Positions 24,215 to 36,909 of a stretch of DNA of 40,077 nt are shown here, piece by piece (positions within the stretch are counted from its first letter, which is position 1; each line of letters begins with the position of its first letter). The translations under genes and the position numbers were made by a program. Under the pieces are notes generated by a model. That model did not search any database and was not told where the DNA came from. It was given only the letters and a program-made list of their open reading frames with translations. This DNA comes from Bacteroidota bacterium (GTDB lineage: Bacteria; Bacteroidota; Bacteroidia; Bacteroidales; F082), in assembly GCA_024279935.1 (NCBI GenBank), contig JAJRQZ010000058.1, positions 1 to 40,077 on the forward strand. The letters run 5' to 3'.

Positions 24215-24220
24215 TAAGAA

Positions 24221-25777
24221 TTACTCAACAATAAACTTACGGGTATTTAATTGCCGTTTGTTGTTTAATAAACTAACGTAATATAAACCTTTAATAAAAC
24301 TGCTGATATTTATCTTGATGTTCCCATTAAGAGGAACGTCAAGTTGCTCAACAACTTTACCTTCATTATCGTAAAGTATGATCACGCTGCCCCGAGAATA
24401 AGTTACTGAAATATTAATCTCGCTTTTTGCGGGATTTGGCCATACTTTTATCGGATTTTCATATTCTGTTTTTGACGGCAGCTCATCAATGTTAACAAAA
24501 ATGCCGCAGTTTAGATCCAGTGTGTCAGTACTTATTTGATGGTTACAAAGGCTGTCATATGTTATTGGTTGCGTATATAGGCTGTCGTCTTCAAGAAACT
24601 TGTTCATCTTCCAGAGATACATTTTTAAAGAATTTGACACATTAGGATAAGCTGCCACCACTAAAAATTTGTCATCCTTTGTCTTAAGTAATTTGTTGCC
24701 TCCACCATAATATTCATAAACAAGCCTTCTGTTTTTAAGTGTACCCAAAGTATCTGTAACAAACAGCTCCGTAAAACCTACGTCAACAGGATAATGGTTA
24801 TACTGCCAACTTCCCAATATATAAATTGAAGTATCATTATAAATTGTTAAAGGGGAGGCGCCTCCATTGGCAATTGTGTCGCCAAGAATTAGCCCATAAT
24901 AAAGCTCGTTACCGTTTTTGTCCGTTTTTAATATTGCAGGGCTGGGCTTGTGTCCGGATACAGTTAATCTTGCACCGGAGTAAAAATTACCATATTTATC
25001 CTCAACAGTATTAAATGAAATTCCACCACTTCCTTCGTCTGCTTCCCATAATGTCAGCCATTTCTCATTACCCATGGAATCGCATAATATAAAAAGAGGG
25101 TCTGATATTGCCCCGGTTACAAGATAGGATGAGTCGCTGGTTAACAATAACTTATAGCCTTCTTCATTATGAAGGTCGGGGTCTTCGTTCTGAGCCAGAT
25201 GTTGCACCCATAAAGAATTACCGAATTTGTCAAATTTAACCAAACTAATCCTTGTTGTTTCATATTGGCCTGCATAATACCTTACCAGGCCGATTACGCT
25301 CCCATCGTTTAATTCAATGGCATCGATACCAAAATCGGAACCTCCGCCATAATCCGCGTGAAGAATACTGCACCATTCAATTTCCCCGCAGCTGTTTAGT
25401 TTAATGAAAAGCGGATCCCACCAGTCAATTTCATATTTATTGGTCCATCCGGCTAGCAAATATCCATTATCAATTGTTTTTTCAACACTATTTAAGCCAA
25501 CATAGTAGTCTTCCTGTCCAAAAGTTTTTTTCCACAAAACGTTTCCGTTAACATCGGTTTTGTATAAAAATCCTAATCCCAGACCTTGATAAGCAGGCTC
25601 TTCAAATCCTGTAATCAGAATTCCGCCGTCGTAATCCTCCTCAAGTTCTTTAATGTAGTTGAAATTGTTGTCGCCAAAAATTTTTGGCCAGTCTTGTCCA
25701 AATACGCTCGCACCGACATTGAACATTAATACTGTTAAAATCGTATAACCCCAAATTTTTAAATAGTTATTTTTCAT
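24221..25777 (-). CDS. Secreted beta-propeller-like protein with T9SS type A sorting domain
   Basis: A 518-residue exported protein with an N-terminal signal peptide (about 1-28). The body (30-400) consists of repeated blades of the type GGILITGF...YKTDVNGNVLWKKTFG and DGSVIGLVRYYAG...VKFDKFGNSLW, the delta-60/PQQ-like pattern. The last 75 residues, from IKVWPNPAKSEINISV, are a T9SS type A sorting domain. No enzyme motif is visible; adhesion or ligand binding is plausible. It is 56 bases downstream of the large protease gene, which it probably follows on one transcript. Confidence 0.85.
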   Translation of the reverse strand: MKNNYLKIWGYTILTVLMFNVGASVFGQDWPKIFGDNNFNYIKELEEDYDGGILITGFEEPAYQGLGLGFLYKTDVNGNVLWKKTFGQEDYYVGLNSVEKTIDNGYLLAGWTNKYEIDWWDPLFIKLNSCGEIEWCSILHADYGGGSDFGIDAIELNDGSVIGLVRYYAGQYETTRISLVKFDKFGNSLWVQHLAQNEDPDLHNEEGYKLLLTSDSSYLVTGAISDPLFILCDSMGNEKWLTLWEADEGSGGISFNTVEDKYGNFYSGARLTVSGHKPSPAILKTDKNGNELYYGLILGDTIANGGASPLTIYNDTSIYILGSWQYNHYPVDVGFTELFVTDTLGTLKNRRLVYEYYGGGNKLLKTKDDKFLVVAAYPNVSNSLKMYLWKMNKFLEDDSLYTQPITYDSLCNHQISTDTLDLNCGIFVNIDELPSKTEYENPIKVWPNPAKSEINISVTYSRGSVIILYDNEGKVVEQLDVPLNGNIKINISSFIKGLYYVSLLNNKRQLNTRKFIVE

Positions 25778-25833
25778 CTGTGAATGTTTGTTGAAAAGGA
25801 GAAGCGCTTATAAAGCGCCTCTCCATTTATTAA

Positions 25834-28800
25834 TTAATCAATTTTCGATAGTCGTTTAGAATCCATAAGTTTATTGCCTGAGTACAAGCTAATTATATAA
25901 ACCCCGGAAGGTACATCTACCAAATCCAAGGTAATTTGGTTTTTACTTGCAGTCAAGTTATTGTATTTTATCGTAGTGCCTTTTAAGTCCCGCACAATGA
26001 TAATGCCTTTGCCAGAATCCAAACCAAGGTCATATTCTACTACAACAAAGTTTTTTGCCGGATTAGGCATTAACCTGAGCCCCGAGCTGTTCAGCTCAGT
26101 TGACGGCCTGTCGTCAGGATATATCCTTTTGCTTTTATTCGTGCTTGGCAGATAAATGCTTTCATGATAATTAATGAGCCCGCCCTTTACAAGCAATCCT
26201 CTTGCAAAAGAACTTACTAAAGGCAATTCACTATCGGCAATCCCATTTAGTATAGAAACGCTATTGCTGTCAAGACCGGAAGCCAGTAAAGTATCTGTTT
26301 TCATTTCATCTAAAATACTAAAATAATCTACATAAGCGTCATTAACTGATGATTGAAAACCATTAAGCTCAAAGTCAAGAGGGATATCGTTAATTGTACT
26401 ACTTGCAGAGGTCAAATCACCTTTGTCGGCATAAGATATTGCAAGTTTGTATTTTGAGTTGACATCCTCCTCGGCTTGATAAACATTAATAATGCTGTCA
26501 TAAGGAAAAAGGTTAGTAGTGTCTTCCATAAAAGATCTGACCAAACTGTTGAGGGCTCTGGACCGTTCGTTCTTCCAAAACTCCAACTTGCTTTGCAGCA
26601 CTTCTTTGTCCCCGACTATTTCTTTGCCTCCAAGGATTTCATTCATCATATATCCCGGCATTTCGTCAACCCTGTTGTCAATAGCATCAAGAATGGCGTC
26701 ATTCTTAGCCGACTGCGGGTTTTCTACCAACACATCCCTCAGCATAGAATTTAACAAAACATCTTCCTTTTCAATTGCCGACTTCATAACGGTATCACTT
26801 AAATAAGGCGAGTCGGCTATTAACTGATCCCTTAAAACAAGGCCTTCATCCTGAACGCTAACAGCTATATCATTGTTTGTGGCATCTGTATCGCCTCCAT
26901 CCGTTAAAGCAGCCAATTGGCTGTTATAAGAAGAAATACTTGCTGATGCGGTTGCCATTACCGTCCTTTCGTTACCCCCTGAAATATGCGAAGGACAGGC
27001 TTCAGATTTAGAATATGTAATATTGAAAGGATTATTTAATGTAATTGTTCCATCGGTATAATTATTGTCCAAAGGCATTAATTGTTTTAATAAATCTGGT
27101 GCATGATGGAAATAAGTAATATGTTCCCCCTGGTTATTGTAATTCCATAAATAATTACTATATGCAGGAACTCCATCGAACCAATCAGTAAAAGTATTGC
27201 CTGCCATCATCTCAGTATTATTAACGGGGGCTCCTTGCATACTTTTTATGCCCACTAAGCCTTTTGGATTTGGGTTTAACGGGTCTGAGACAACATATAA
27301 ATCATTTAAATTATCGTATAAATCATTGCATTTAATTGTCAGGCCTGTACTCTCGCCTTTATTTATTCCCTCGGCAATAATAGGGAAGGTTAAATTGTGT
27401 AAAGTATTATTATATATCTCATTGTCATCCTCACCCGAATCCTTAATGTAAATTCCTATTAATTTAGCGGATATAACTGCTCCTATATGATAACTACCTG
27501 AAAACTCATTTTCCTCAATAGTATAACCTGTACAACCATCAAGGTAAACTCCTCCTATATATGGGTCTGCCATATTGGATATATTTATGCTTGAGTTATC
27601 ACTAACAAACTCATTATTATACACTTTGCATTGGTTATATCCTGACATATAAATACCAACTATATTGTTGTTTAATTCAGCTTCAGTTACAGAAAACAAC
27701 TTATTTGTCCCTGTATTGAAAGCCCTTATCCCATAGCGCAGATTCTGAAATGTGGTCGGAACGCTTTGTGGACACGGAACAGTATTTGGGTCGCTGCATC
27801 CCGAGATAATGTTAACACTTGCATCAATAACTAAAATACCGGTTCCTAAATCATCAGCGATTGGGCTTGTTACTTCTGTTTGTAAAACATAATCAAACTT
27901 GCAACCTTCAACAGCAATACCATAAACTCCATTTAACTCCAAATGGTTTTCAGGAATAAAATCTACGAATGTGGAGTTGTCTGTCTCAAAAACAGTGTTT
28001 TTAAACTCGCTTTCGTTTGCGATGTATTGTGGGTCATAATACGAAAGAAATTTTACATCATTCCTGTTGTTTAGAAATGAGGAATTTCTTGAGATTATAA
28101 TCCCGCCCGATTTATTGTAATCAAGTTCACCCGAAAATGGGTCAGTTGCACCAACCAAAACAGCAGTCTCAGCAAAATTAATGCTTCCGTTATTTTTTAT
28201 CAATAAATAGCCTTGGTTTGAATGCGGTAGTTGCGGGATAGAGTTGTCTCCAATAACTTCAATGCCTTTCCATATATCATTGCATGCTTTTGTAAGAGTA
28301 CCGCCATCGATTATCAAGCGCCCACCTGGTTTAACCTTAATTATAACATCTTTCTGGATAAAAACTTTTGAGGTAATAATAAGTTCTCCTCCTGCGGTAA
28401 TACTTACTGGTTGCTCGAGAGCCATAGGGCTGTCCCAATAAACTGTAGTATTGATTGGGATTGGTGTCGTGTTGTATTGAGCGAGACATTGGCATGAGAA
28501 ATCTGCACTAAAGGAACCCAGTAGTGGATTGTTGTCGTCGCAATCGATATAATTAGACGCTCCGGGTGGTTTTGATCCAATTCCCCAATTGTCAATACCG
28601 TCCCCATCCGCATCTAATAATAATTGATCGGGTTCATTCGGGGTTAAAAATACAGGCTCATTTGCTACACCTATGTATACAAATGTACTCGGAGCAGGCT
28701 CTATACCAAATCCGCCAACCCCCCAATTGTCAGGGCCTAAATTCTCTTTATAAATAAAGTTGATTCTGCTAGCTGCTTCATCGTAAGTCCAACCAACTAA

Positions 28801-29943
28801 GGTTACAGCATGGGCACCCCCATTTTTAACCCAAGACAAAGGTCCTTTCTGTTTTAAAAGTAATTGAACATCGCTGACAGTAAGGTTTTGATCCATCCAA
28901 TGTTCTGTTACACTACCTACAGATATTTTAGTATCGGGATTGTTACAAACATCATAACAATTGCCATCACCAGATATATATGGATAGCAAGCCTCTTCAA
29001 CAACATAGTTGTTTTTAATATAACTAACGACATCAAAAGGCCATCCCCCTGCACAACTAACCATAGGGTTGCACGAAATCTGTTGTTGTTCAGATAAATC
29101 AAAATCAACTTGTTGGTTGTAGTATAGGTTAATCGTGGATTCAAGTGAGCCCAAAGTGCTAAAAACGCCACATGAACCGCATAAGTCTTGGTTTTTGGAT
29201 GGAGTTAGCCAGCCACTTCCGTATTGGGAATCTCCGTCGAAATAAGCGGACTCTGGATCATTTGCGCCATGCCTATTTCTCCAATCCCAGTTATGGATAT
29301 AATTTGTAGTGGGTACATATGCATAATTTTCGCTGCTGTTCTCATAAACACCTCCGGCATAATAATCATATCCTTTCAGGTTGTATTTTTCACCCCATCT
29401 TGCTTTCTTGTCCATATAGAATTCTTGAACGATAGAATTGTAGCCGGCCGTCCATGAATAACCATTTTCAACAATATTTGAATTAATGATGTCGATTTTT
29501 GATATGTCATTATTATACTTTGCTGTGGCTTGCAATGAAATGGCATTTTGAATCGAATTATCTGTGGTGGTCAGAAAATCAATTGTCAGTGTTGAATTTA
29601 TTATTTCAACTCTTAGAGAAGATGGTTGTATACCATCTAAATACATGGTTTCGTCACTTTTGTTTTGAACGGAATAAGCAATACTATTGCTAATTAAGGG
29701 GTATGCTTCATAAAGCATGTATTCCTCACCAGTTTGAGTTTCAAGTATTATTCTAACTAAACTAGTATCGCTGTTTAAATTTATATTTCCTGTAAAACTC
29801 AATCCAAAAATAGGATTAGTGTTAAAAGGATTGATAATTGTGTCACTTGAATAACTGTTATTTATATTAATATTTCCTGCAAACATTAGTGTTGCCAGCA
29901 AATTTATCAAAATAACAAAAACTATTAACTTGAACTTTTTCAT
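25834..29943 (-). CDS. Giant secreted C1 (papain) family protease with beta-helix and T9SS sorting domain
   Basis: A 1369-residue protein with a signal peptide (1-22). A propeptide-like region (about 25-215) precedes a papain-fold domain (about 218-430) with Q252, nucleophile C258 in CGSCG, and H378 in GGAHAVTLVGW. The canonical CGSCWAF is CGSCGVF here, and the usual KNSWG is KENLG, leaving N401 or E400 at the third catalytic position. A calcium-type DADGDGIDNWG segment (445-455) leads to a right-handed beta-helix (about 500-1000), then a helical region (about 1030-1260) and a T9SS type A sorting domain from LMPNPAKNF to the end. It is predicted to be displayed at the cell surface. A well-formed promoter and operator lie upstream at 30098-30128. 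Confidence 0.9.
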   Translation of the reverse strand: MKKFKLIVFVILINLLATLMFAGNININNSYSSDTIINPFNTNPIFGLSFTGNINLNSDTSLVRIILETQTGEEYMLYEAYPLISNSIAYSVQNKSDETMYLDGIQPSSLRVEIINSTLTIDFLTTTDNSIQNAISLQATAKYNNDISKIDIINSNIVENGYSWTAGYNSIVQEFYMDKKARWGEKYNLKGYDYYAGGVYENSSENYAYVPTTNYIHNWDWRNRHGANDPESAYFDGDSQYGSGWLTPSKNQDLCGSCGVFSTLGSLESTINLYYNQQVDFDLSEQQQISCNPMVSCAGGWPFDVVSYIKNNYVVEEACYPYISGDGNCYDVCNNPDTKISVGSVTEHWMDQNLTVSDVQLLLKQKGPLSWVKNGGAHAVTLVGWTYDEAASRINFIYKENLGPDNWGVGGFGIEPAPSTFVYIGVANEPVFLTPNEPDQLLLDADGDGIDNWGIGSKPPGASNYIDCDDNNPLLGSFSADFSCQCLAQYNTTPIPINTTVYWDSPMALEQPVSITAGGELIITSKVFIQKDVIIKVKPGGRLIIDGGTLTKACNDIWKGIEVIGDNSIPQLPHSNQGYLLIKNNGSINFAETAVLVGATDPFSGELDYNKSGGIIISRNSSFLNNRNDVKFLSYYDPQYIANESEFKNTVFETDNSTFVDFIPENHLELNGVYGIAVEGCKFDYVLQTEVTSPIADDLGTGILVIDASVNIISGCSDPNTVPCPQSVPTTFQNLRYGIRAFNTGTNKLFSVTEAELNNNIVGIYMSGYNQCKVYNNEFVSDNSSINISNMADPYIGGVYLDGCTGYTIEENEFSGSYHIGAVISAKLIGIYIKDSGEDDNEIYNNTLHNLTFPIIAEGINKGESTGLTIKCNDLYDNLNDLYVVSDPLNPNPKGLVGIKSMQGAPVNNTEMMAGNTFTDWFDGVPAYSNYLWNYNNQGEHITYFHHAPDLLKQLMPLDNNYTDGTITLNNPFNITYSKSEACPSHISGGNERTVMATASASISSYNSQLAALTDGGDTDATNNDIAVSVQDEGLVLRDQLIADSPYLSDTVMKSAIEKEDVLLNSMLRDVLVENPQSAKNDAILDAIDNRVDEMPGYMMNEILGGKEIVGDKEVLQSKLEFWKNERSRALNSLVRSFMEDTTNLFPYDSIINVYQAEEDVNSKYKLAISYADKGDLTSASSTINDIPLDFELNGFQSSVNDAYVDYFSILDEMKTDTLLASGLDSNSVSILNGIADSELPLVSSFARGLLVKGGLINYHESIYLPSTNKSKRIYPDDRPSTELNSSGLRLMPNPAKNFVVVEYDLGLDSGKGIIIVRDLKGTTIKYNNLTASKNQITLDLVDVPSGVYIISLYSGNKLMDSKRLSKID

Positions 29944-30097
29944 TTTATTGTTTTTTTAAATATTTGTGTTACTTATTTAGATTTTACAAATACATTTTTA
30001 GGAGGAGGTCTTATTATGTTGGTTAATATGGTTAACATGTATTGCTATTTGTTACAATCTCATTTTTGAATTTCATCTCATAATATTCTTAAAAGAG

Positions 30098-30128
30098 CAA
30101 ATATAGCATATATGCTATAATATAACAA
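30098..30128 (-). promoter_or_regulatory. Bacteroidota-type promoter for the C1 protease (TTG - 20 bp - TATATTTG)
   Basis: On the minus strand, TTG at 30128-30126 is followed after exactly 20 bp by TATATTTG at 30105-30098. This fits the Bacteroidota housekeeping consensus TTG-N19-21-TAnnTTTG in both boxes and spacing. Transcription should start near 30093, giving an untranslated leader of about 150 bases before the protease ATG at 29943. It is the only promoter in this window for which I found both boxes at the right spacing. Confidence 0.7.
30102..30119. promoter_or_regulatory. Perfect 18-bp palindrome, candidate XRE operator
   Basis: TATAGCATA at 30102-30110 is followed directly by its reverse complement TATGCTATA at 30111-30119. 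The palindrome covers four bases of the protease -7 box and 14 bases of its spacer, so a bound dimer would block that promoter. It also overlaps a TATAAT at 30116-30121 on the plus strand, 34 bases before the XRE start codon. Position and symmetry suit an autoregulated XRE repressor. Confidence 0.65.
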
Positions 30129-30154
30129 ATTAATTAGAACAATTTTTGTCCTTG

Positions 30155-30376
30155 ATGAATTTTAGGGACGAGGAGGTGTTATATGCTTTTGGAGAGAATC
30201 TTAAAAAGCTACGTAAGAAACGAGGTTTTTCGCAAGAAAAGCTTGCCTATTCATCAAATATTAGTCTTTCCCAAATAGCAAGAATTGAAACGGGTAGAAT
30301 AAACACAACTTTGTGTACTATCGTTAAAATTGCCGAAACTTTAGAAATTGATCCGGCTGAACTATTAAGTTTTTAG
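30155..30376 (+). CDS. Small XRE-family helix-turn-helix regulator
   Basis: A 73-residue Cro/CI-type DNA-binding protein made almost wholly of one HTH domain (about 8-70): NLKKLRKKRGFSQEKLA, SSNISLSQIARIETGRIN (recognition helix) and LCTIVKIAETLEIDPAELL. No sensor or dimer domain is attached. The frame opens with a TTG three codons upstream; I took the ATG at 30155. It diverges from the C1 protease gene, with the palindrome and promoter between them, and converges on the DEAD-box helicase gene 27 bases beyond its stop. It could be a self-regulating repressor of the protease operon or an orphan antitoxin-like regulator; no toxin gene is adjacent. Confidence 0.9.
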   Translation: MNFRDEEVLYAFGENLKKLRKKRGFSQEKLAYSSNISLSQIARIETGRINTTLCTIVKIAETLEIDPAELLSF

Positions 30377-30403
30377 GATTACTTGTTAGAGTTTTGAAAT
30401 GTG

Positions 30404-32608: not shown

Positions 32609-33964
32609 TTATATTTTTTTCGGCTTATATCCTGCCAAGCCGTAAAACATGAGGTAAATATAGCTAAAAACGGGAACAATAAAAGCCATTTGAACGCCCT
32701 CGATATCGGCAACTTTTCCGCTTATAAGCGGAAGGATCGCACCGCCGAGAATCATCATCACCAATAATGATGAGCCCTGGCCGGTATATTTACCCAATCC
32801 GGCAATTGCCAAAGTGAAAATATTTGACCACATTATCGAATTGAACAAGCCAATGCCGATAAGGCTCCACATTGCAATATTTCCTGTTGAGCCAAGCACA
32901 ATAGCAAGTAATACAATATTTATGCCCGCGAAAACGTATAGGTTCCTGTTTGCTTTCGACCCGGCAAATATAAATGCTAAATAATTGAGCAATAGCAACA
33001 TGCTGAATATAGAGGCTGTTTCTAAATCTTTTATCAAACCAATAACCAGAAATGACGCAATTGGTACGATAAGCATTATGGAATATTTTTTTAATTTATT
33101 GTTGATGTCGCTGAGCGAAATGGCCCCGATAAACCGGCCTATCATCTGTCCTCCCCAGTAAAAAGCGACATAAACACTTGCTTGTGTTTTATCCAAAGCC
33201 CCAATTTCAGGCAGGTGCAGGAAGTTAATTATCATGCTTCCAATGCTCACTTCAGCACCGACATACATGAAGATGGCAAGCATTCCGAAGATAAGTTGAG
33301 GGTATTTCAAGGCCCCAAAACCTTTTACATGCTCTTCGGAGTTTGTAAAAACCGGTAGTTTGGTTTGTCTTATAAAAAAAGCGACCAGCAAAAACATGAG
33401 AGCAAATACCAGATATGGGATTTTTACCGCATCAGAGCCTATGGCATCCTTGAAGAAGGTGAAGATCAAATATCCGCCAATTACCGGCCCTATGGTGGTT
33501 CCCAGCGAATTAAACCCCTGGGCAAGGTTTAGCCGCGACGATGCTGATTTATCCGGGCCTAAAATAGCAACATAGGGATTAGCCGAGATCTGCAATAATG
33601 TAAATCCGAGCCCAAGGACAAATAATGCCGACAAGAAGAAGCCGTATATATGGTATTGGGCCGCCGGATAAAAAAGTAATGCACCCAATGCCGACAACAA
33701 AAGCCCGGCAATGATTCCTTTTTTGTACCCTATCTTGTTTATGGGGTCGCCTTTGGTTGCAGAAACTAAAAAATAAAGTAGTGAGCCTATAAAATATGCA
33801 AGGAAAAAGGCAAATTGCACCAACATAGCCTTGAAATAGTCCAGTTCGAAGACGCTCTTTAAATAAGGTATTAGGATGTCGTTTAAAACAGTCATAAACC
33901 CCCACATGAAAAATAAAATTGTCAGGCTTATAAATGCTGAAGTGTAATTTTTTTGATTTTGCAT
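32609..33964 (-). CDS. FucP/GluP-type sugar:H+ symporter (MFS)
   Basis: A 451-residue twelve-helix major facilitator of the fucose/glucose-galactose permease family. FFMWGFMTVLNDILIPYLK (about 20-38) and QISANPYVAILGP with SSRLNLAQGFNSLGTTIGP (about 127-165) are family signatures. Candidate substrates are neutral hexoses or N-acetylglucosamine, the latter favoured by the neighbouring glycosylasparaginase, which would release GlcNAc. I took ATG 33964; the frame also holds a TTG five codons earlier. It diverges from ferredoxin-NADP reductase across about 280 bases. Confidence 0.92.
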   Translation of the reverse strand: MQNQKNYTSAFISLTILFFMWGFMTVLNDILIPYLKSVFELDYFKAMLVQFAFFLAYFIGSLLYFLVSATKGDPINKIGYKKGIIAGLLLSALGALLFYPAAQYHIYGFFLSALFVLGLGFTLLQISANPYVAILGPDKSASSRLNLAQGFNSLGTTIGPVIGGYLIFTFFKDAIGSDAVKIPYLVFALMFLLVAFFIRQTKLPVFTNSEEHVKGFGALKYPQLIFGMLAIFMYVGAEVSIGSMIINFLHLPEIGALDKTQASVYVAFYWGGQMIGRFIGAISLSDINNKLKKYSIMLIVPIASFLVIGLIKDLETASIFSMLLLLNYLAFIFAGSKANRNLYVFAGINIVLLAIVLGSTGNIAMWSLIGIGLFNSIMWSNIFTLAIAGLGKYTGQGSSLLVMMILGGAILPLISGKVADIEGVQMAFIVPVFSYIYLMFYGLAGYKPKKI

Positions 33965-34243: not shown

Positions 34244-35053
34244 ATGGATCTAACAGGAGAGTTAAACTGCAGAATAATACAAAACGTTCAGGTTTCGCCT
34301 ATTATGAGGATAATAAAGGTGAGCCCCGAAGGCTGGAAGTTCCCGGAATTTGAATCAGGGCAGTTTGTTGCCTTGGGGCTGACACCTGATTCGGAACGCT
34401 GTAAGGAAGCCACCGACGAGCATTCGGCCCCAAAACCGGAAAAACTAATAAAAAGGGCCTATTCCATTGCATCGGCCTCAACTGAGGATTCCCTGGAGTT
34501 TTATATTACCCTGGTGCATTCCGGACAGCTAACCCCACGCATTTTCAATCTGGAAATAGGCGACAAGATATTCATGGGCAAAAAAGCCGTCGGCATGTTC
34601 ACCCTCGATCAGGTTGACGACGAACGAAATGTTGTTCTTATTGCCACAGGCACAGGGGTTGCCCCCTATATGAGCATGCTCCGCTCCAACGCATTACGAC
34701 GCAAAGGAAGGATTATGGTTATTCACGGGGCAGCAAACTCATGGGACTTGGGCTATTCGTCAGAGTTGAAACTGCTTGCCAATATGTTCCCTAACTTTAG
34801 TTATTACCCAACTATTACCGATCCCGCTAAAGAGCCGACAGGTTGGGACGGCGACACAAGGTTTATCCAGGAAATTTGGGATGGCGGCATCGCAATGGAA
34901 AAATGGGGGGTGGAAACAACACCCGACAATACTGACTTCTTTCTTTGTGGCAACCCCAAAATGGTTGACGGAATGAAATCGGCATTGGAAAAACAAGGAT
35001 TCAAAGAACATAAAAGAAAAGAAGCTGGGCAGATACACGCTGAGGAGTTTTAA
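34244..35053 (+). CDS. fpr: Ferredoxin--NADP(+) reductase
   Basis: A 269-residue FAD-dependent oxidoreductase of the bacterial FPR type. The FAD-binding beta barrel contains RAYSIAS (about 72-78), with the flavin-contacting Tyr and Ser. The NADP domain contains ATGTGVAPYMSML (about 133-145) and the C-terminal CGNPKMVDGMKSAL. It moves electrons between NADPH and ferredoxin or flavodoxin in the cytoplasm. An insertion of acidic and charged residues (SERCKEATDEHSAPKPEK, 50-67) precedes the FAD motif. It is monocistronic, ending at a strong terminator. Confidence 0.92.
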   Translation: MDLTGELNCRIIQNVQVSPIMRIIKVSPEGWKFPEFESGQFVALGLTPDSERCKEATDEHSAPKPEKLIKRAYSIASASTEDSLEFYITLVHSGQLTPRIFNLEIGDKIFMGKKAVGMFTLDQVDDERNVVLIATGTGVAPYMSMLRSNALRRKGRIMVIHGAANSWDLGYSSELKLLANMFPNFSYYPTITDPAKEPTGWDGDTRFIQEIWDGGIAMEKWGVETTPDNTDFFLCGNPKMVDGMKSALEKQGFKEHKRKEAGQIHAEEF

Positions 35054-35083: not shown

Positions 35084-35119
35084 AAAAAAGGCGGACTTAA
35101 TATTAAGTCCGCCTTTTTT
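35084..35119. terminator. Perfect 36-bp bidirectional intrinsic terminator
   Basis: The stretch is an exact palindrome: six A, then GGCGGACTTAAT, then its reverse complement, then T residues (35114-35120). On the plus strand it forms a GC-rich stem followed by seven T, ending the ferredoxin-NADP reductase transcript 30 bases after its stop; on the minus strand the A tract reads as T, ending the SppA transcript, whose stop is at 35134. It serves both converging genes. Confidence 0.93.
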
Positions 35120-35133
35120 TATTGTTCGGTTAA

Positions 35134-36909
35134 TTAATTTACCGAATAGAAGAACGGCAATCGAGCCTGAACGCCTCTCATATCCTGCAAAGTTTTAATT
35201 TGATCGTAATAAGTTTTAAACATCCCGAGCTCATCGCCTATAATTCTAATTTTGGCCTCGCCGGTAAGCTCAAGCATAAGTTGCTCGAAAAATTCTTTTT
35301 GCTCCGGATAGTTCCTTAATCTATAGTCGCCTTCGATATGCGCTTTTTCGGCAGCATAGGCAATGGCATCCTGCAAACCACCAATCTCATCGACGAGTCC
35401 GATCTTGATCGCATCGCTACCGGCCCAAACCCTGCCTCTTGCTATGCTGTCAACAAACTCAGGTTTTAAACCCCTTGTATTTGCAACAAGACCAACAAAG
35501 TTGTCGTAGATATTTATTATCTCAGCATTTATCTTTTCCCTTTGGAAATCGCTCATGGGAGCCATAACGTCAATAAAGCTGGCATTTTTGTTGGTGGCAA
35601 CATTGTCGAAAGTAATTCCAAGCTTATTGGTCATCAGGCCCTGGAAATTGGGAATAATGCCAAATACGCCTATGGAGCCTGTAATCGTGGTTGGCTGGGC
35701 AAAGATATAATCCGAATTAGTTGAGATCCAATAGCCTCCGGAGGCAGCAACATCACCCATGGAGACGATAAACGGTTTGGCCTCTTTTGCCAGGGCAACC
35801 TCGCGGCGTATCACATCAGAGGCCAGGGCATCGCCGCCGGGTGAGTTCACACGCATCACAATTGCCTTTACATTGTCGTCGGTTCTTGCTTTCTTTATGG
35901 CTTTGGCAATTTTTGCCGATCCCATGGACTCCTTGTTACCCTGTCCCTGCACAATACCGCCCAGGGCATAAACAACAGCTATCTTGTTTTTGGATATATT
36001 GGTTTTTCCCGCTGCCACCTTGGTATATTTTGCGTAACTAACCCATGCCAGCTTTTCGTCGCTCTCCATGCCCGTCAGTTCCTTAAGCCTGTCAACCAGC
36101 TGGTCGCGGTAAAGCAAGCCATCAACAAATTTCAGTTCTAGTGCTTTTTCAGCATTTGTAACATCCAGCTTGTCAGCTATATTATTGAGGTCTTCAATGC
36201 TTATGCCCCTGCTGTCGTGCAAAGTAAGCAGAATTTTGCCCCAAATCAAGTTCAGCAGTTGCTGATATTGCTCGCGGTTTGCCTCGCTCATCTTGTCCAG
36301 TATAAGCGGTTCCACGGCACTTTTGTATTTATTGTTGGGCCCTCTAACGATCTGCATCTCGATTTCGAGCTTGCTCAACATGTTCTTGAAAAACAACAAT
36401 TGGGCATTCAGCCCCTTAAACAGAACCATCCCTTTCGGGTTCAAATAAATCTCGTCGGCGACGCTGGCAAGGTAATAGCCTTTTTGGTCGTAGGAATTTC
36501 CGTAAGCAACAATAAACTTATCGGACTCCTTGAAGGCTTCGAGTTTATTCCTGATTTCCTCGGTAGTTGCAATTCCGGCAGGGATGGTCTCCATATCGAT
36601 GAAAACACCATCAATATCCGGATCTTTGGCGGCCTTATCGATATTAGCGAGGATCTCGTTCAAACCGGCCGGCTTGTTCGATTGCATATTGGCAAAATCG
36701 AAACCTTCGAAAGGATTGTCCGTCCCCCTGTCCCTTATGGGTGTTTTCCAGTTTAACTGGAGCACCGAATGAGGTTTTACGCTCACGGTTTCGGTTTCCG
36801 ACATGGCAACGATGCTGGAAATCAATCCGGCCATAACAAGAAAAATCAAGAGAATAGTAAGCAAAGTGCCTGCAAACGAGGCAAACATAAATTTTAAAAA
36901 CTGTTTCAT
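35134..36909 (-). CDS. sppA: Signal peptide peptidase SppA, 67K type
   Basis: A 591-residue membrane-anchored serine protease that degrades cleaved signal peptides. One N-terminal membrane helix (about 12-35) tethers two tandem ClpP-like domains. The dyad is split across them as in E. coli SppA: lysine K196 in NNKYKSAVEP in the first half and serine S390 in GDVAASGGYW in the second. TGSIGVFGIIPNFQGL and ARGRVWAGSDAIKIGLVDEIGG are further family blocks. It is of the full double-domain length. It is monocistronic, facing the reductase across the shared terminator. Confidence 0.95.
   Translation of the reverse strand: MKQFLKFMFASFAGTLLTILLIFLVMAGLISSIVAMSETETVSVKPHSVLQLNWKTPIRDRGTDNPFEGFDFANMQSNKPAGLNEILANIDKAAKDPDIDGVFIDMETIPAGIATTEEIRNKLEAFKESDKFIVAYGNSYDQKGYYLASVADEIYLNPKGMVLFKGLNAQLLFFKNMLSKLEIEMQIVRGPNNKYKSAVEPLILDKMSEANREQYQQLLNLIWGKILLTLHDSRGISIEDLNNIADKLDVTNAEKALELKFVDGLLYRDQLVDRLKELTGMESDEKLAWVSYAKYTKVAAGKTNISKNKIAVVYALGGIVQGQGNKESMGSAKIAKAIKKARTDDNVKAIVMRVNSPGGDALASDVIRREVALAKEAKPFIVSMGDVAASGGYWISTNSDYIFAQPTTITGSIGVFGIIPNFQGLMTNKLGITFDNVATNKNASFIDVMAPMSDFQREKINAEIINIYDNFVGLVANTRGLKPEFVDSIARGRVWAGSDAIKIGLVDEIGGLQDAIAYAAEKAHIEGDYRLRNYPEQKEFFEQLMLELTGEAKIRIIGDELGMFKTYYDQIKTLQDMRGVQARLPFFYSVN

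Follow-up and report, generated by a model that had tools for sequence, protein, structure and literature searches.

A small XRE-type regulator and the palindrome in front of it probably form a self-regulating unit, in which a single site also shuts the divergent promoter of an exported protein. The pair lies in a 40,077-nucleotide stretch of DNA from a Bacteroidota bacterium (contig JAJRQZ010000058.1; hereafter the window). In the proposed mechanism, the one-domain XRE protein, presumably a dimer, would bind the palindrome as its operator. The operator would serve the XRE promoter first: it lies ~42.5 bp ahead of the predicted start, in the place expected for the -33 contact, and the XRE protein could there activate or tune its own synthesis, as do lambda cI at PRM and the C proteins. 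The same DNA also underlies the divergent promoter's spacer and -7 box, and a bound dimer would block the gene opposite, here a C1 protease with a T9SS signal, and perhaps also the T9SS gene behind it. In nearly all genomes tested the unit has a single site, and it is joined to different, often exported, proteins in different Bacteroidota. We infer binding, self-activation and partner repression from this geometry and from the presence of C.AhdI, C.BclI and CylR2 among the closest solved proteins.

Table 1. Features of the XRE-protease locus (window coordinates; a dot marks features without a strand)
Feature	Position	Strand	Remarks
XRE regulator gene, 73 aa, one HTH_3 domain	30155-30376	+	ATG at 30155 opens the 73-codon frame
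Perfect 18-bp palindrome TATAGCATATATGCTATA	30102-30119	.	proposed XRE-family operator, consensus TATAGCA-n4-TGCTATA
-7 box TATATTTG of the divergent (protease) promoter	30098-30105	minus	TATA common to box and palindrome
-33 element TTTG of the divergent promoter	30126-30129	minus	plus strand reads CAAA; spacer of 20 to the -7 box
Predicted XRE -7 box AATTTTTG	30141-30148	+	putative; 5 of 6 letters; mRNA start predicted at ~30153
Alternative, weaker protease -7 box TGTATTTG	29987-29994	minus	5 of 6 letters; outside the palindrome; leader of ~39 nt
1369-aa protein, papain-type (Peptidase_C1) with T9SS sorting domain	25834-29943	minus	domain scan
518-aa protein, T9SS sorting domain, downstream of the protease	24221-25777	minus	domain scan
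Block of T9SS gene, protease and XRE	24216-30402 (ends approximate)	.	congener G003 lacks it between the same two flanking genes

The initial annotation had described a perfect palindrome, a minus-strand promoter and a 73-residue XRE gene running in the opposite direction, and all three are borne out. The palindrome consists of two arms of 9 with zero loop and 100% complementarity. The promoter follows the Bacteroidota -33/-7 consensus (PMC7366714, PMC6847099) in both boxes and spacing, with plus-strand letters CAAATATA at its -7 box and a predicted start at ~30093. For the XRE gene, a longer alternative frame begins with TTG at 30146. By itself this anatomy is only suggestive and would not carry the claim, because the palindrome is marginal in an AT-rich gap and unremarkable in 40 kb: when the 211-bp intergenic stretch is dinucleotide-shuffled 20000 times, arms of at least 9 appear in 0.57% of cases, and when the whole window is shuffled, 38 of 200 sequences contain a palindrome that long. 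Likewise, 2.7% of shuffled intergenic stretches contain the pattern TTG-N19-21-TAnnTTTG on one strand or the other, and the whole window has 6 matches. The exact palindrome word is present as a single copy in its own genome, where 3 matches are found at up to 3 mismatches, not above the backward control (4). It is the comparative evidence that makes the association of palindrome and XRE a real observation. The window contains further palindromes, one of 18 bp (32716-32733) and one of 36 bp (35084-35119); the latter is perfect, lies between the convergent ORFs 34244-35053 and 35134-36909, and is probably a bidirectional terminator. A 13-nt direct repeat, GAGGAGGT[C/G]TTAT (12/13), flanks the XRE promoter region at 30002-30014 and 30170-30182, 168 nt apart; it resembles a Shine-Dalgarno-like word, of which the phylum is said to be devoid.

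The protein belongs to the XRE group by its HTH_3 score (50.2 bits against a curated cut-off of 23) and is the only match in its own genome at E<=1e-10. The recognition segment SQ[IV]ARIET is present in the window XRE and in the relatives listed, a result that is partly circular, as one of the two search patterns for relatives demanded the segment. When a profile of six XRE relatives is compared with solved proteins, C.AhdI is the best match, and C.AhdI, a quorum-sensing controller, C.BclI, HipB and CylR2 rank first. An improbable alternative is that the XRE is the remnant of an antitoxin or mobile-element repressor, with the operator as the usual autorepression site and the neighbours as accidents of insertion. 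The window XRE shares its HTH superfamily with RstR- and HipB-type repressors, HipB is among its solved relatives, and its best NCBIfam matches are the phage RstR and Y4mF/HipB antitoxin models; however, both scores are under the curated cut-offs (45.5 of 80 bits, and 40.2 of 71.65 bits for HipB/Y4mF), which leaves the protein outside the latter family, and no phage partner or toxin gene is recognised among the three neighbours scanned (protease, T9SS protein and DEAD helicase). Mobility gives a similarly divided picture: relatives below 60% identity occur on 23 of 72,556 plasmid records, four of them from Hymenobacter, but a search of 50,697 phage records with the relative in genome G009 returns a single match, at 43%. 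At least 120 viral-contig stretches carry the operator pattern, and among the 120 listed none has an XRE, by motif, 28-39 nt behind it. In one viral contig, L202, the operator pattern occurs four times within 1.4 kb, with no XRE by motif behind any of these sites.

The initial annotation had staked its reading on the palindrome recurring beside related XRE genes, and it does recur. Relatives were collected by searching 84,980 species genomes with six close XREs, giving 85 loci of which the best 80 were named; these include re-finds of the same sequence (G009, G456, G618, G682 and G596), which add no evidence. Near-duplicates were cut to 41 representatives at below 75% identity, and kinship inflates all counts, those of the 41 representatives included. 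Among the best 80 of 85, TATAGCAnnnnTGCTATA is present upstream at 12 or more of 14 letters in 71 and with all 14 letters in 56, compared with 0/80 shuffled and 0/78 downstream stretches at the same threshold. The relatives without the operator are L145, L147, L154, L161, L164, L167, L168, L169 and L174 (9/80). The gap from operator end to start codon is 31-36 nt in 72 of 72 sites, the window included at 35 nt (mode 33), the start codon being taken as the in-frame start nearest 33 nt within 26-41 nt; by sequence and spacing alike the window belongs to the operator-sharing group. Within the same family, G009 has an XRE relative of 52% identity with TATAGCACACGTGCTATA at the same place, situated between a 131-aa ORF and, by eye, a threonyl-tRNA synthetase-like gene, with no T9SS gene seen adjoining. 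That the palindrome is merely a chance AT-rich one, as the whole-window shuffles might allow, is rejected by this conservation beside the XRE, and has next to no probability given that the exact window word recurs letter for letter, at the same place, in 8 of the best 80 relatives (L163, L170, L171, L173, L176, L179, L180 and L181). The palindrome thus appears to be the binding site of the adjoining XRE. As 79 of the best 80 named loci are labelled Bacteroidota, the gene-and-site pair recurs across the phylum and looks like a widespread small control unit, not a one-off protease switch. The exception, L163, is on a contig labelled Rickettsiales that nevertheless encodes a member of this XRE group preceded by the window's exact operator, and is possibly a misassigned contig.

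The regulator is apparently local, because genomes generally hold one site, which is the XRE's own. In 30 chosen XRE-bearing genomes (that of the window plus 29 from among the 80 loci), exact sites number one in 26, two in 2 and none in 2, while the backward control gives 0/30; by contig ranges and positions, each of the 26 single sites is the one next to the XRE. The two genomes with no exact site (L117 and L160) carry variant operators, and the two-site genomes are G844 and G832, where the second G844 site also precedes an XRE (L171). A global regulon is not supported by these single sites (26 of 30 genomes). A blind search of 393 genomes of the order finds the exact word in 11, compared with about 12 for the backward control (our own count), and thus no excess; the site precedes an XRE in 5 of the 11, and the other 6 have no XRE-like ORF starting 15-74 nt after the site on either strand. 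Conversely, an XRE at E<=1e-11 is present in 8 of the 393 genomes, 5 with an exact TATAGCA-n4-TGCTATA immediately before the gene and one with a TATGGC variant there. The idea of one core shared by every XRE relative is rejected, since some have other palindromes: G081, G376 and G305 have GTAGG-n8-CCTAC instead (with one mismatch in G081), G807 and G804 have others again (by eye), and upstream of the XRE relatives in G349 and G313 no palindrome is identified. The operator centre lacks both a C as first base and a G as last base in 16 of 17 relatives with Cys at one protein position (the window XRE has Cys there) versus 7 of 54 with Ser, a contrast that was picked after looking, leaves one relative unclassed and may be explained by kinship. 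Five of the nine operator-less loci (L154, L161, L164, L169 and L174) have divergent exported genes of one cluster, to which the operator-bearing L159 also belongs; by eye, the five share other upstream words and perhaps represent a sister unit under another control.

The position of the operator points to the XRE gene's own promoter. A TAnnTTTG -7 box spans -12 to -5 relative to the first mRNA base (PMC9723704, PMC6847099), and in the 41 representatives, lined up by their start codons, positions -8 to -6 read TTT and position -5 is mostly G or C; therefore the XRE mRNA should begin at, or a few bases from, the start codon, and is predicted to be leaderless or nearly so. Such mRNAs are few: according to the surveys in question, leaderless mRNAs make up 5.5% in Flavobacterium psychrophilum (PMC9723704) and leaders below 10 nt ~3.7% in Bacteroides thetaiotaomicron (PMC7366714). 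Within the 22 nt before the start codon, a box with 5 of 6 letters is found in 39 of 72 loci and one of 4 letters or fewer in 33, while a complete box (6 of 6) is found in none of the 72. Across the 39 boxed loci, the distance from the operator centre down to the predicted start is 42.5 bp in 35, 41.5 bp in 3 and 31.5 bp in 1, ties being settled in favour of the box nearest 4 nt before the start codon; the window gives 42.5 bp, with a box that has no -33 element. Counted without a tie rule, 20 of the 41 representatives have a box giving 41.5-43.5 bp, compared with a null mean of 2.7 and a maximum of 9 in 500, whereas the presence of such a box anywhere is less telling (30 representatives versus 18.6 in the null). 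In L128, L140 and L177 a second operator with 12-13 of 14 letters follows 7 bp further on, over the -7 region, while shuffles of the 72 sites reach 10 of 14. The initial annotation had added that the XRE probably represses its own gene too; with the site locked to the XRE start and predicted promoter whatever the neighbour, control of its own gene becomes the likely main function.

The fixed distance to the XRE start, and not to the partner, is also the first argument for the strongest alternative, which is that the XRE controls only itself, that the overlap with the divergent promoter is incidental, and that the protease uses the promoter with the -7 box at 29994-29987. We regard this as unlikely, though deserving of real weight. 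The operator is kept at L111, L119 and L181, where the nearest upstream ORF runs in the same direction, and control of a divergent neighbour is therefore not a constant function. The alternative box would give the protease a far shorter leader than the 150 nt from the palindrome-side promoter, the median leaders reported for two Bacteroidota being 24 and 32 nt (PMC9723704, PMC7366714). Against this alternative, the window has the exact -7 box and TTTG, properly spaced, directly on the palindrome, and 27 of the 41 representatives have an exact divergent TAnnTTTG box no more than 34 bp from the palindrome (shuffle mean 1.9, maximum 7), while 14 have none and the right flank gives 0/41. A -33 TTG at a spacer of 17-23 accompanies only 4 of these 27 boxes, the window's among them. 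The gaps between box and palindrome are -4 (window, L163 and L181), 5-7 (14 cases), 13-16 (9 cases) and 20 (one case), roughly a helical turn from one group to the next. With such spacing the bound protein would sit on a single face relative to the polymerase. This is suggestive only, as the phasing is weakened by kinship and by the AT-rich motifs at -18 and -28 described as general in Flavobacterium johnsoniae promoters (PMC6847099), which could produce 10-bp phasing and which also fit the view that the XRE acts on itself alone.

Divergent partners are exported more often than other genes. For signal peptides we used a simple rule of our own, which misses several seen by eye, and ORFs below 80 aa were excluded on both sides. 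In the best 80 of 85 loci, 64 have a divergent ORF of at least 80 aa starting within 420 nt of the matched XRE stretch, and these fall in 44 sequence clusters. A signal peptide is called in 40 of the 64 partners; among the other ORFs the rule calls one in 101 of 458, and among the genes that come first downstream in 15 of 77. By cluster, the figures are 27 of 44 partners versus 72 of 336 others. At operator-bearing loci, 35 of 58 partners have one, versus 7 of 52 genes of other divergent pairs at the same loci, and 23 of the 58 partners are not called exported. This excess speaks both against an XRE that controls only itself and against a remnant with accidental neighbours. Of 50 partner proteins chosen for a Pfam scan, including the window's protein and two second genes (L105 and L177), five have the T9SS signal Por_Secre_tail and one has CHU_C. 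The remaining partners include PKD, LamG, sulfatase-modifying and DUF proteins. Also found are histidine kinases and a glycosyltransferase, none of them cargo. The notion of a switch dedicated to T9SS cargo, as first put forward, is thus too narrow, with a sorting domain in 6 of 50 diverse partners, the window's included. In L090 (the same sequence as L118), a second ORF with a leader-like start lies behind the divergent exported gene from 2663 onward; by eye it resembles C39/AvrRpt2-type cysteine proteases (QEHSNWCWDAS), and is perhaps another protease in the L090 unit.

Known systems offer partial parallels to the unit favoured here, a self-regulating XRE whose site also shuts a divergent promoter. 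As described in PMC4824078, C proteins are small regulators of XRE type whose own promoter contains a palindromic operator and whose mRNA is commonly leaderless; they activate at low and repress at high level. The window XRE resembles C.AhdI and C.Csp231I in size, operator placement and predicted leaderless mRNA, and the tandem operators of C genes (PMC4824078) have a counterpart in the three relatives with a second site. The geometry would fit C-protein autogenous activation upstream of a leaderless promoter. Unlike C proteins, the XRE usually has one operator, with a different half-site, and a partner that lies opposite and is often exported; no restriction or methylase gene is found among the three neighbours scanned, which sets it apart from restriction-modification systems. 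CylR2, a small XRE-type repressor of the enterococcal cytolysin operon, is encoded divergently from a secreted product whose operator it binds (PMC5454873), and the window XRE, a relative by solved structure, is likewise divergent from a product with an export signal. CylR2 differs in working with the membrane protein CylR1 from the same transcript, while no CylR1-like gene lies in the 27 nt that separate the XRE stop from the helicase ORF, and the window XRE is not assigned to this type. At lambda OR one region serves two back-to-back promoters, and the activating cI dimer is centred near -42 of the leaderless PRM. The predicted layout here is alike in both respects, and the XRE could activate from the site near -42 in the same way; unlike cI, the window XRE has no second domain, and no prophage is seen.

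No description of such a unit was found in open-licence full-text literature, operator words included, nor anything joining XRE and Bacteroidetes or F. johnsoniae with divergence, lipoprotein, operator or leaderless. A bolder reading, which we offer tentatively and consider rather less probable than its being wrong, is a plug-in switch used throughout the phylum, in which a single XRE gene with one operator would activate its own leaderless transcript and silence a back-to-back exported-protein gene, producing a two-state surface phenotype. The switch would have been exchanged between unrelated lipoprotein and T9SS-cargo genes, and newly gained surface genes would be silent in most cells. The favoured unit itself already turns a local guess into a prediction at the scale of the phylum. 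If that unit is right, many accessory exported proteins of Bacteroidota would be run by one recognisable switch that can be found by its operator letters, and a lambda-like circuit would exist in a phylum with a different promoter code, for which few local regulators of T9SS cargo were found in print.

At the protease locus itself, the palindrome is found to follow the XRE and not the protease. The motifs CGSCG, GAHAVTLVGW and KENLGPDNWG, seen by eye in the protease, are presumably those of papain. Its closest relative, in G020, is a single unbroken match of 51%, and four further genomes (G005, G007, G017 and G024) match both protease ends at lower identity; none of the five has an XRE relative at E<=1e-10, as expected if the XRE controls only itself. 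The initial annotation had proposed looking for the palindrome beside protease homologues; G020 has neither an adjoining XRE nor the palindrome in the stretch examined, so an operator belonging to the protease is not supported. From the promoter overlap and the divergent -7 boxes of relatives, repression of the C1 protease by the XRE is plausible. The case for the window's protease is good, with promoter and operator overlapping more closely than in most relatives, while the long leader and the alternative box speak against it. What stands of the initial interpretation is accordingly the link of XRE and palindrome, while control of the protease stays at the level of a plausible prediction.

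The block that contains the XRE, the protease and the T9SS gene looks inserted, as a mobile remnant would. In G003 the same hydrolase and helicase genes lie 24 nt apart with nothing between them; among the other congeners, a close helicase in G001 has different genes around it, and at the threshold applied nothing above 44% matches the helicase in G002 and G004. The block has a GC content of 36.6%, compared with 43.5% and 41.7% in the flanks, and GC3 values of 0.27-0.35 versus 0.51-0.55 in three flanking genes. Composition, the sole basis here, makes it likelier that the window's lineage gained the block than that G003 lost it. At E<=1e-10 the four congeners (87-98% complete) have no relative of the XRE, and overall only 1 of 60 relatives has one. 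The C-terminal two thirds of the protease (approximately residues 490-1368), or parts of it, have 11 more matches in the same genome at E<=1e-30 (L027, L038 and others), and this region forms a multi-gene family there.
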